A stretch of DNA of 64,000 bases from assembly GCA_024637035.1 (NCBI GenBank), contig JAGXFW010000016.1, forward strand, positions 372,001 through 436,000, read 5' to 3'. Of the stretch, positions 59,859 to 64,000 are shown in pieces. This DNA is from Actinomycetes bacterium (GTDB lineage Bacteria > Actinomycetota > Thermoleophilia > RBG-16-64-13). Both the position numbers and the translations under genes were made by a program. How positions within the stretch are numbered: the stretch's first letter is position 1; each line of letters starts with the position of its first letter. Under the pieces are notes generated by a model that searched no databases, was not told the DNA's origin, and saw only the letters and a program-made list of their open reading frames with translations.

Positions 59859-61262
59859 TCAGTCCCCCTCGAGCTTCCTGCGGAGGATCTCCACCGATGC
59901 GATCTCGATGCCCAGCAGCCTCGCGATGCGCGCTTTCGCCGCCAGACCTCGGGCGGCCCCCGGCATCGCCGTCACCACGCCGATATCGAGATCCTCACGC
60001 ACTTCGCGCATCAACACCTCGTCGGAGAGGTCGGCGACACCGACTCCGAGCTTCTCTGCCACGAACGCCTTCGCCTCTGGGATCCGCATCTTGCGATGGA
60101 GTTGCATCCGAGCGACCAGGTCTCCGGCCGTGCGGATGCCCCCCATCCCGGAGGCGAGCACGTGCGCCATGGGCATCCCGACGGGATCGCCCACGCCCAC
60201 CTATAAGCCGTCCACCCGCCCGATCTCCACCATGGCCGCGCTGGCGCGGGTCACGGCGTCCACCGGGGGAGTCTCGCACATGGGCACGCCGCCCACGCCC
60301 ATGCCTACATTCGCATGGATCGGAATGGTGGCGACTTCGGAGCAGGCCTTCACGAACGTTACGGCCCGCGCGACGTTCCAGGCTGTCGACATGCGGGTGT
60401 TGGTGTTGACCACGGGGCCGAAGACGGAAGCGCCGGCCTGTTCCACCAGCTTGACCTGTTTGTGCGGGTAGAGACCCGCCAGGCGCTCCCCCCTGTAGGA
60501 GACCTCGCCGTGCATGCCGAGCACGAACTCCGCGGCCATGCCCACCTGGATCGACAGGTGCGTGTTCGCCGAGAGTTCCTCGATCGCCAGGAGAGTAGCC
60601 AGAAATTCAGCGTCGCCGGCGGAGGCGGTGGTGTCGAAATCGAGGCCGTCGGCGCCGGCCTCCGCCATCTTCCTGCCCACGTAGACCATGTCGCGTGTGC
60701 AGGCCCCGGCCGCCTCCATCTGGGCTACGCGGGCCTCGTCGATCTTGCCCAGCGGCATCAGGTCGGAGGGGTTGCCGAACGGGCCGTCGGGCCGCGCGTA
60801 GGTAGCCAGATTGGGCATGGCCCCGTAGAAGACGGGGATGATCGTGGCGAGGAGAACACTCTCCATGCACTGCTGCTCGTTGGCCACCACCGGCTTCACC
60901 GGCTTGAAGGAGTAGTCGGCGTGGCCGAGTTCGATCGTGTCGAAGCCGAAAGCGCGTTCGAAGAGGCGGATCGCCTGCTCGCGCGAAACGGGCACTCCAA
61001 CGCCGCTGTCGCCCTGTTCCGTGTACAGCGACCCCGCCACGCCGTCGTCGCTGAGCACGACCTCCCGACCGGCCTCCACTCCCACGATACGCCCGGGATA
61101 CGCGAAGAGGTCGAAGAGATGGTCGCGCTCTTGTTCGGTGATGGTGGGGATACCCCCACGGTCGGCGGCGTCTTCGGTGCCGGCTAGGATGTCGGCGCGG
61201 AGTCCTTCGGAAGACACGTGCTCGACCCGTCCGTCGCCCATGCGCATGCGGTGTGTGGCCAT
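59859..61262 (-). CDS. mtbB: Dimethylamine methyltransferase MtbB with in-frame amber codon (pyrrolysine)
   Basis: Transfers a methyl group from dimethylamine to its corrinoid protein, first step of methylamine use. The frame is interrupted by a single TAG (60201-60203), codon 354, in the context [18 protein letters not shown]. Reading through gives 467 aa, matching the length of Methanosarcina MtbB, whose pyrrolysine is at about residue 356. After the TAG the sequence continues with [15 protein letters not shown] and a normal C-terminus. Before it: [49 protein letters not shown]. The ATG overlaps the mttB stop (TGATG). No cognate corrinoid protein gene is in the window. Confidence 0.93.
60201..60203 (-). 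other. In-frame TAG of mtbB, probable pyrrolysine codon 354
   Basis: Amber codon inside mtbB. The protein-like sequence continues without a break for 113 residues to a TGA. Confidence 0.88.
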
Positions 61263-62743
61263 CAGCGTTCTCCTTGAGTCGGGGCCGGGCGGCCCAAATG
61301 TCGCGCGATGACCGCTTCCGCTTCGGGCGGCAGCGGCGGCACCGTGTGCTCGGCGAGGATCTCACGGGCCAACCTCAGGGCACGCGCATGAGCGTCCTCG
61401 CCGCCGCGCTGCTGCCAAGCCCCTCGCATCCGCCGGTCGATCACCCGCACCCGCGACTGCTCGCGGGCCGCTGACTCCCGGGTCTGCTTCTCGCGCAGGA
61501 AGTTGCCGTCGAACCCCACCCTTTGGATGGAGTCGAGACTGATAGAGGATGCGTCGCAGCGGATGCCTTCCAGCACCCTGCGGTTCATTCGAGCAATCTC
61601 GTCATCAAGCACCATCTGGCCGAAATCGAAGGTCAGGCCCAGTTCGAGCATACCCATGCCATAGATCAGGTTGGCCCCTGCCAACGCTGGTAACAGACTG
61701 GTGAGGGTCTTCTCGTGGCCCGCCTGCGCGTCGGGCAGCTTGCTGTCCGCCTAACCACCCGCGACCCAACACGGTAGATAGTAGAAGTCGCTCATCTCGG
61801 CTACCGCGGCAGAGATCAGGGCCAGTTCGGGAGCGCCGACGGGCGCGGTGGCATGGCGCAGATCGAAGGTGGTCGTGCTGCTGCCATAGATGACCGGGGC
61901 CCCGCGGCAGGCAAGTTGAGCGAGCGTGAGCGCCGAGAGCACCTCCGCGTTGTGCGTGACCATGGTGCCTGCCAGGGTGATGGGGCTGGTCGCTCCAGCC
62001 ATGGCCATGGAGATCACGTTCGACGCGATCCCGTGCCGGGCGCACCGCATCATGATCTCCGGCGTGGGCGAGTAGAGGGCCAAGGGGCTCGTGGGACACG
62101 TGTCGACAGAGAAGATAGGACGCTCGCGCAGCGCCTCGGCTCCCCCGACGACCGCCGCGGCGATCTCCACCAGGGTGTCGAGTTGCTCGCCCGTCTCGAC
62201 GCCCGCGTGTACGTGCTTCGTGGTGTTGCGCAACGCCGCGACGAAGCTCTCCAGATATGCGTCCTCCGGGGGCACGTCGGTGGGTGTCACCGCCATCTCG
62301 AAGGTCTCGCACATCTCGAGGGCGTCGCAGAGTCGGGCGATCTGGGCGAGATCGTCCAGAGTGGAGTCGCGGTGGTCGCCGGTCTCCAAGTCGTAGACCT
62401 TGGTGCCCTCGCCGAAGTTCGTATATCCGACCGAGTGGCCGCCCATGACGTAGTCGTGCGCCCCGTCTCGAGAGGCCAACAGGATCGTGCCGGGAGCCGA
62501 CTCCAGTGCTTCTTCCACCACGCGACGAGGGAAGCGGACGGTCTGCGTGGCCGTGTCCACGGCGCACCCGGCGGAGTCGAGCATGTCCAGCGCCTCATCG
62601 ACCGGCACCTTCACCCCCACGGTCTCCAGCACTTGCAGCGTGGCCTCGTGGATCGCCTCCCGACCCGTAGTGCCAAGGACATCGAAGCTTATCCGCGATA
62701 CCCCCGCCCGCTCCTCGCCTCTGGGCTTGTCCCTCCACCCCAT
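61262..62743 (-). CDS. mttB: Trimethylamine methyltransferase MttB with in-frame amber codon (pyrrolysine)
   Basis: Moves a methyl group from trimethylamine to a corrinoid protein. One TAG (61751-61753), codon 331, lies in PCWVAGG-TAG-ADSKLPDAQAGHE. Reading through gives 493 aa; the archaeal enzyme has ~495 with pyrrolysine near 334. Other seen motifs: EATLQVLETVGVKVPVDEAL, GGHSVGYTNFGEGTKVYD, SVDTCPTSPLALYSPTP and, after the TAG, NLIYGMGMLELGLTFDFGQM and RVGFDGNFLREKQT. The presence of an amber codon sets it apart from the pyrrolysine-free MttB relatives that use glycine betaine. ATG behind AAGGAAGGG, four bases after the lrp stop. Confidence 0.95.
61751..61753 (-). other. In-frame TAG of mttB, probable pyrrolysine codon 331
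   Basis: Amber codon inside mttB, followed by 162 further residues of clear MttB sequence up to the TGA that overlaps the mtbB start. Confidence 0.9.
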
Positions 62744-62747
62744 CGCG

Positions 62748-63257
62748 TCACACCCTTCCTTCCAACGCGGGATCCTCGGGTATCTCCCACATATAGCTGA
62801 ACTTCTCATTCCCCAGGATGGTGAAGACCTCGACCGAGATGACGCTCCCGCCCGGGGCCAGCGGCCCGCTGAGGAAGTCAAGCAGTTCCTCGCTACCGCG
62901 GAACACTCCTTCCACCAGCAGGTTGTACCGGCCGGTGCAGTACCCCACCCAACACACTCTGCTGAGCGCGGCGAACGTGCGGCCCACTTCGCGCAGGTCT
63001 CCGGCGACGACATTCACGCCGATCATGACGTTGATCGCGTACCCCGTCGCGGCCGGGTCGAGCAGACCGACGATCTGCACCACCCCACTCTCCATCATCT
63101 TCTCGATCCGCTTGCGTACCGTGGGCACGGACACTCCGGAGACTCGAGCGATCTCCGCGTTCGGCACGCGGCCGTCGCCCTGGAGCAGGGCCAGTATCTT
63201 CCGGTCCAGCGAGTCAAGCCGCTCCGGTCGCGGCTCGCCCTTCTTGTGGTCGTCCAT
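62748..63257 (-). CDS. Lrp/AsnC-family regulator of the methylamine operon
   Basis: 169 aa from the ATG at 63257, behind GGGGGTG; ATG 63281 adds eight residues. Helix-turn-helix (LDSLDRKILALLQGDGR, NAEIARVSGVSVPTVRKR) and a C-terminal RAM domain (INVMIGVNVVAGDLREVGR, VGYCTGRYNLLVEGVFRG). First gene of lrp-mttB-mtbB; its stop is four bases before the mttB start. It may sense methylamines or a product and control the operon; that is inference from position. Confidence 0.87.
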   Translation of the reverse strand: MDDHKKGEPRPERLDSLDRKILALLQGDGRVPNAEIARVSGVSVPTVRKRIEKMMESGVVQIVGLLDPAATGYAINVMIGVNVVAGDLREVGRTFAALSRVCWVGYCTGRYNLLVEGVFRGSEELLDFLSGPLAPGGSVISVEVFTILGNEKFSYMWEIPEDPALEGRV

Positions 63258-63555
63258 CGCACCCCCGATCAGTTGAGGCATGGCTTCGCCAGCGTATACT
63301 TATCGATTCTACACGTCAATACCGTCATGACTTATCGTTTCGGTAACTCATATCGACAAAGTACGCATGAAGCGCGCCGTGGCAACACAGCGTCGCGGCA
63401 GACTGCAGGGAAGAAACAGGCCGGGCTTCCGCTACCTCAGCGCGCTGCGCCGGGCGGTGTGAGTTCCCTCACCTCGTTCTCATCGTGACCTAATGTCCGC
63501 GGCCGATACTGGGTGTAGCATCCGTCACATGGTGATTGGACGAGGAGGTGGACCG
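63258..63555. promoter_or_regulatory. Divergent control region of the lrp-mttB-mtbB operon
   Basis: Holds a possible minus-strand promoter, TTGACG (63319-63314), 15 bases, TATACG (63298-63293), and three TATCG motifs near 63301, 63333 and 63351. The best is the imperfect palindrome TTATCGTTTCGGTAA (63332-63346). These are plausible Lrp sites. The rest holds no gene; a small repeat GTGAG-ttcc-CTCAC lies near 63460. Confidence 0.4.
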
Positions 63556-63816
63556 ATGAACAAGACCCCTTCGGTATCGCTGGGCTCAACAGAGGTGATC
63601 ACCCTGAGTGCCTTGCTTCGAGAGATCCTCGCTGAGGAAGGCGGGGCCTATGCCTCCGTCTTCGCGGGCCCTGAGTTCAGGTCGTACGACGGCCCGTACG
63701 ACGGCCGCGTCGCGGCAGGGTCACCATCGCGGCAGAGAAGCCGGGTTCATGCGGGCCTAGCGTGCGCCAACAACCGGGAGCCCGGACAGAAGTCCCCACG
63801 ACCCGCCCTTCGCTGA
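63556..63816 (+). CDS. Small hypothetical protein
   Basis: 86 aa from an ATG eight bases after AGGAGG, a convincing ribosome site. The N-terminal half (MNKTPSVSLGSTEVITLS, LLREILAEEGGAYAS) looks protein-like; the C-terminal part is Arg/Ser-rich and its last 60 bases overlap the convergent FAD-enzyme gene. A tandem repeat cgtacgacggcc (twice) lies within, at about 63681-63704. It may be a short protein that ended originally elsewhere or a degraded gene. No family recognised. Confidence 0.4.
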   Translation: MNKTPSVSLGSTEVITLSALLREILAEEGGAYASVFAGPEFRSYDGPYDGRVAAGSPSRQRSRVHAGLACANNREPGQKSPRPALR

Positions 63817-64000
63817 GCCGGGCCTCACGCCTGACTGGATCGCCTGGCGCAAGCGCCCTGCGCCCGGCTGCGATCCGAACATGACCGCTCCCACCAGCCG
63901 CCCTTCCTGCAGCCAGAGCGTGCGTGCGCGGCCCGAGACGGGGTCCCCGATCACCGTCCGCACCACGCCCCCGCCCAGGTAGCCCAGGGCTTCTGGACTC
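63757..64000 (-). CDS. C-terminal end of a probable FAD-dependent pyridine-nucleotide oxidoreductase (cut by window edge)
   Basis: 81 codons of an open frame that enters from beyond base 64000 and stops at 63757. Residues LQEGRLVGAVMFGSQPGAGRL, RQAIQSGV match the C-terminal strand-helix unit of NAD(P)H/FAD oxidoreductases and nitrite-reductase-like enzymes (pattern LVGAVLxGD). The tail after it is Gly/Ser-rich and ends LPVVGAR. It may supply electrons to a partner not in the window, possibly a corrinoid reactivation system; that is only a guess from position. Confidence 0.6.
   Translation of the reverse strand, partial: SPEALGYLGGGVVRTVIGDPVSGRARTLWLQEGRLVGAVMFGSQPGAGRLRQAIQSGVRPGSAKGGSWGLLSGLPVVGAR

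Follow-up and report, generated by a model that had tools for sequence, protein, structure and literature searches.

A trimethylamine methyltransferase gene crossed by a single in-frame amber codon raises two questions: whether the codon is read as pyrrolysine, the 22nd amino acid, and whether the genome encodes the means to make and insert that residue. The window analysed here is a stretch of 64,000 nucleotides (bases 372001-436000 of the 466,484-base contig C33) from a genome of 3.57 Mb in 34 contigs (G000). Comparisons were made across a sample of 99 genomes, comprising G000 and relatives drawn from its genus, family and class. The congener G001 (JAHJSA01, Actinomycetota bacterium OS_PC_MetaG.mb.176) has nearly the same arrangement of Pyl and methyltransferase genes. 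The actinobacterial host proposed in a sequence-only reading of the locus fits these comparisons, in which the congener is an Actinomycetota bacterium and a member of the same family is a Thermoleophilia bacterium. Coordinates are given in Table 1.

Table 1. Coordinates of features in the window and at other loci; unprefixed positions refer to the window.
Feature	Position	Strand	Remarks
mtbB, dimethylamine:corrinoid methyltransferase	59859-61262	minus	467 codons, one in-frame amber; TIGR02368 585.5 bits, cut-off 369.1
mtbB TAG, codon 354 (putative pyrrolysine codon)	60201-60203	minus	sole internal TAG; RF02509 PYLIS_2, 85.3 bits, beginning at the TAG
mttB, trimethylamine:corrinoid methyltransferase	61262-62743	minus	493 codons, one in-frame amber; TIGR02369 641.5 bits
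Rfam RF02510 PYLIS_3 (mttB) stretch	61654-61753 (= L025:5654-5753)	minus	83.5 bits, gathering threshold 38
mttB TAG, codon 331 (putative pyrrolysine codon)	61751-61753	minus	aligns with residue 334 (Pyl) of 7xcm
Lrp/AsnC-family regulator	62748-63281	minus	directly upstream of mttB; best NCBIfam match AsnC, 60 bits, below equivalog cut-off
Aldehyde ferredoxin oxidoreductase-region genes	L025:7757-15660, reaching back into window 63757-64000
pylSc	L026:3381-4328
pylSn	L026:4265-4630
tRNA-Pyl (anticodon CUA)	L026:4676-4747		ARAGORN tRNA-Pyl (cta)
3-hydroxyisobutyrate-dehydrogenase-like gene	L030:2602-3519 (G000:C28); G001:C24:40192-41103		diverges from amber mtbB in both species

The amber codon of mttB and its counterparts

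The mttB frame, for which the sequence-only reading gave no strand, lies on the minus strand and runs from ATG to TGA over 493 residues. Its sole in-frame stop is the TAG at codon 331, in agreement with the earlier description of one frame split by a single TAG. The fused product matches the NCBIfam model for Pyl-type trimethylamine methyltransferases (TIGR02369) over residues 20-479, above the curated cut-off of 525, and aligns over nearly its full length with Methanosarcina MttB (PDB 7xcm, 387 bits). Residue 334, which is pyrrolysine in 7xcm (PMC9842639), is matched in that alignment by codon 331; the amber stands exactly in the Pyl column. The protein thus belongs to the same family as the Methanosarcina proteins MttB (PDB 7xcl/7xcm/7xcn) and MtmB (1l2q, 1tv2), with its amber at the MttB pyrrolysine position. 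Unlike Methanosarcina, the host is a bacterium with a split synthetase, and no methanogenesis is inferred. From its sequence, MttB is predicted to transfer a methyl group from trimethylamine to MttC.

The adjoining mtbB gene is likewise crossed by one TAG, and genome-wide the amber genes comprise four mttB, four mtbB and one mtmB, the last with a full-length match of 570 bits to Methanosarcina MtmB. TAG occupies the Pyl334 column in all four mttB copies, two of which are cut by contig ends just past the TAG, and a sense codon occupies it in several non-Pyl mttB paralogues. The TAG in a further mttB match, at C32:72427, lies upstream of the start codon and was set aside as not being a Pyl-column amber. 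Other amber genes of the contig have corrinoid protein genes of the appropriate family beside them, and RACo/RamA-type reductive activators are encoded in the genome. The Lrp/AsnC-family gene upstream of mttB is a possible regulator of the mttB and mtbB pair.

The congener carries TAG at the same place in mttB. By a simple Nei-Gojobori count on the single species pair G000/G001, dN/dS in mttB is 0.16 after the TAG and in mtbB is 0.24 after and 0.07 before it; over all post-amber halves compared it is 0.04-0.24, indicating purifying selection. A sequencing error or pseudogene stop in mttB, the former having been considered in the sequence-only reading, would have to recur in one and the same column of four mttB copies and in the congener, on a contig that also carries Pyl machinery. 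We found no point in its favour; recurrence in effect refutes it, and we give this explanation next to no chance. Matches to the Rfam PYLIS families at the mttB and mtbB ambers support family membership. They do not prove an RNA element because both sites are coding regions, the mttB stretch being mostly conserved coding sequence.

Pyl genes on the same contig

The genes pylC, pylB, pylSc, pylSn and tRNA-Pyl(CUA) lie on contig C33, 13-17 kb beyond the window end. Past the window, on the same strand, a second mttB stands beside the gene for its corrinoid protein, and pylC, pylB, pylSc, pylSn and tRNA-Pyl(CUA) come next. These are followed by an MtaA/MtbA-like methyltransferase, a second amber mtbB, a corrinoid protein, a transporter of the TMAO-permease family, the amber mtmB and another corrinoid protein. 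All four proteins exceed their model cut-offs: PylSc (TIGR02367, 291.9 bits against 178.15), PylSn (TIGR03912, 100.7 against 51.15), the methylornithine synthase PylB (TIGR03910, 444.9 against 348.2) and the 3-methylornithine-lysine ligase PylC (TIGR03909, 331.3 against 248.3). A genome devoid of pyl genes, the outcome that the sequence-only reading had named as refuting its interpretation, is therefore not what was found. Of the gene set named there, tRNA-Pyl(CUA), pylS (as pylSn and pylSc), pylB and pylC are present, and pylD was found nowhere.

In both G000 and G001 the pylSn and pylSc genes, read in different frames, share about 60 bases, and the true pylSc start may lie further downstream. 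The stretch of C33 that separates its two mttB loci encodes two aldehyde ferredoxin oxidoreductases, an NrfD-type membrane protein, a pyridine-nucleotide oxidoreductase and a ThiS-like protein; the corresponding place in G001 holds AOR-like and 4Fe-4S genes.

The decoding and biosynthetic components are conserved between the two species. PylB, PylC, PylSn and PylSc have dN/dS values of 0.12-0.20 by the same pairwise count, and the tRNA-Pyl sequences are identical. We looked for a changed synthetase pocket and saw none: the PylS pocket residues checked, numbered on an M. mazei reference sequence (which served for numbering only), are the same as in the PylD-bearing family members G005 and G012. 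Four PylC residues reported to bind D-ornithine (PMC10176472) are also retained. The substrate chain therefore looks unchanged.

These observations point to a mechanism in which the TAG codons of mttB and mtbB specify pyrrolysine rather than termination. The tRNA-Pyl(CUA), charged by the split PylSn and PylSc of the same contig, would read TAG and yield full-length MttB and MtbB, which would pass methyl groups of tri- and dimethylamine on to corrinoid proteins. Judged from sequence, the amber codons of the methyltransferase genes are almost certainly decoded by the Pyl machinery; that the inserted residue is pyrrolysine we infer.

TAG also serves as an ordinary stop. In a sample of about 124 strongly coding ORFs from the window and loci L026-L035 (rather than a full annotation), about 49 end in TAG, 71 in TGA and 4 in TAA. 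TAG thus ends about 40% of sampled ordinary genes, and decoding would therefore have to be restricted by context or induction. The pylSc and pylB genes themselves terminate in TAG, and among the sampled ORFs in-frame back-up stops are not enriched behind TAG.

pylD in the genus and its relatives

The described route to pyrrolysine requires PylB, PylC and PylD. PylB would convert lysine to 3-methyl-D-ornithine, which PylC would join to a second lysine; PylD oxidises the resulting 3-methyl-D-ornithyl-lysine, allowing ring closure (PMC11467909). We found no pylD with the TIGR03911 profile in the whole of G000 (34 contigs, approximately 100% complete) or the whole of G001 (110 contigs, 99%). A profile built from the PylD sequences of eight relatives gave best scores of 30 and 27 bits in G000 and G001, from Rossmann-fold fragments only, and 388 and 376 bits in the positive controls G005 and G010. 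A diverged or relocated PylD was thus sought in both whole genomes by two HMM searches, each accompanied by positive controls, and none appeared; such profile searches can be escaped by extreme divergence.

PylC scores above its cut-off in 20 of the 99 genomes, and PylD is recognisable in 17 of these (in one it is split into two fragments, each at the end of a contig). The three others are G000, G001 and G074, the last being incomplete, with its pylC at the edge of a contig. In G010 the gene order is pylC-pylD-symporter-mttC-mttB. In G000 only 178 bp separate pylC from a sodium symporter gene at the place of G010's pylD, and in G001 an EamA-like transporter gene follows pylC by 322 bp. The pylC-side loci contain no N stretches and the site is assembled through in both genomes. 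In a PylB tree G000 and G001 group with the PylD-bearing G005 and G012 (support 99/98). This placement among PylD-bearing relatives makes loss of pylD within the genus the simplest history suggested by the sequences. The genus is represented here by two species, both as draft assemblies and G001 as a metagenome assembly; from these sequences pylD is probably truly absent from it.

Elsewhere, PylB and PylC occur without a PylD in a Syntrophaceticus MAG, a Methanosarcinales MAG and Desulfobacula co234_bin15, all three indistinguishable from incomplete assemblies. In the last of these, a 4.4 Mb MAG (G107, L153), PylC scores 392 bits. PylD is present in 10 of 26 Desulfobacula genomes, and this MAG is possibly a second pylD-less case or possibly an assembly gap.

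Explanations for the missing step

The chief rival explanation is an ordinary, complete Pyl system whose pylD is missing from both assemblies (on an unbinned plasmid, in a repeat gap or as a copy in an unassembled place), with the amber decoded as pyrrolysine. Fragmentation of both genomes leaves room for this, as several contigs of G000 break off within repeated copies of mttB and six of ten other genomes without pylD beside pylB had it elsewhere. The completeness estimates nevertheless make an omission from both less credible, as do the agreement of two species, the unbroken assembly of the site used by a relative and the fact that, among PylC genomes, the only other one to lack PylD is incomplete. 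We consider a hidden pylD unlikely.

Two further explanations take the loss of pylD as real. The genus might load tRNA-Pyl with 3-methyl-D-ornithyl-lysine, which PylC makes, or with a compound derived from it, and UAG would then encode a natural variant of pyrrolysine. Retention of PylB and PylC under selection after the loss of PylD would fit, and there is an engineered precedent in D-Cys-Lys, a PylC product that is made and used by engineered PylC and PylRS variants without the PylD step (PMC10176472). However, the synthetase pocket is that of PylD-bearing family members, and the mechanism proposed for MttB from its structure relies on the imine created by PylD (PMC9842639); we regard such a variant as improbable. 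Alternatively, the loss of pylD might be recent and the pathway dead or fed pyrrolysine by neighbours, the ambers acting as stops in the genus. The lack of a detectable pylD agrees with this, but PylB, PylC, PylS and the post-amber sequences are under purifying selection between the two species, tRNA-Pyl is identical, and retention of PylB and PylC would be unexpected if pyrrolysine were imported. We looked for such decay and did not see it, and consider a dead or neighbour-fed pathway very improbable.

A putative replacement for PylD

We favour a mechanism in which the genus has lost PylD, the canonical enzyme of the third step, and the final oxidation and ring closure are carried out by a hypothetical, non-homologous enzyme encoded elsewhere, perhaps an unrelated dehydrogenase, aminotransferase or oxidase. 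Replacement appears the most likely course because PylB, PylC, PylS and tRNA-Pyl are under purifying selection and the active-site residues are unchanged. If pylD is absent, we are rather confident that such an enzyme takes its place. The complete proposal, comprising amber decoding by the Pyl machinery, loss of pylD and a last step performed by a non-homologous enzyme, we hold to have a somewhat better than even prospect. The working pyrrolysine system supposed in the sequence-only reading is thus supported in sequence for decoding and the first two biosynthetic steps; for the last step, with pylD absent, an enzyme can only be postulated.

No replacement enzyme lies beside pylC, where the neighbour is the sodium symporter gene in G000 and the EamA-like transporter gene in G001. 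A 3-hydroxyisobutyrate-dehydrogenase-like gene was considered elsewhere in the two genomes. Its G000 and G001 orthologues are 91% identical, a second G001 copy is 75% identical, and searches of other family members gave best matches of just 30-38%. Its neighbours are genes for an FGGY kinase and a GlcD-like oxidase, and its own matches are to hydroxyacid dehydrogenases; for these reasons it was set aside as a weak candidate.

Relation to known pyrrolysine systems

The cluster resembles those of Desulfitobacterium hafniense, Acetohalobium arabaticum and Bilophila in its split PylSn/PylSc, tRNA-Pyl(CUA), PylB and PylC, and in its amber mtmB, mtbB and mttB genes with nearby corrinoid proteins. 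It differs from their pylT-pylSn-pylSc-pylB-pylC-pylD arrangement in that G000 and G001 have no detectable pylD; this comparison draws on the literature (PMC11467909, PMC7593587) rather than a genome search. The Thermoleophilia/Actinomycetota genomes JAOSKU01 FR_37, JADQBG01 Soudan_30 and JAJZQZ01 SKS1.bin6 have PylB proteins 59-76% identical to that described here and share the pylB-pylC gene order, the tRNA-Pyl type and amber mttB and mtbB, but carry pylD directly after pylC.

Related Pyl systems are known to us from the literature in Stordalen Mire Actinobacteriota, whose pyrrolysine mttB and mtbB genes have been reported and found to be expressed (PMC10805028), and a review lists two Actinobacteria with PylRS and assigns all bacterial cases to the split PylSn+PylSc type (PMC11764691). 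The description of such systems as uncommon among bacteria is fair, but needs tempering in view of that reported expression and of the 20 sampled genomes with pylC. An actinobacterial pyrrolysine-type MttB is thus already known, and the gene described here is a further instance. The pylD-less cassette is new relative to the literature searched: an exact-phrase search of the open-licence literature found no pylD-less system.

Since about two-fifths of the sampled genes end normally in TAG, the discrimination between stop and pyrrolysine in bacteria is directly testable in this organism. A natural genus with decoding, PylB and PylC and without PylD would reveal either a second pyrrolysine route or a natural pyrrolysine analogue. 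If an unrelated enzyme finishes pyrrolysine, the genus would have a second route to this amino acid; if instead the PylC product is used, UAG would be decoded with a genetically encoded amino acid different from pyrrolysine. Either outcome would bear on the evolution of genetic code expansion and would be useful for engineering it.
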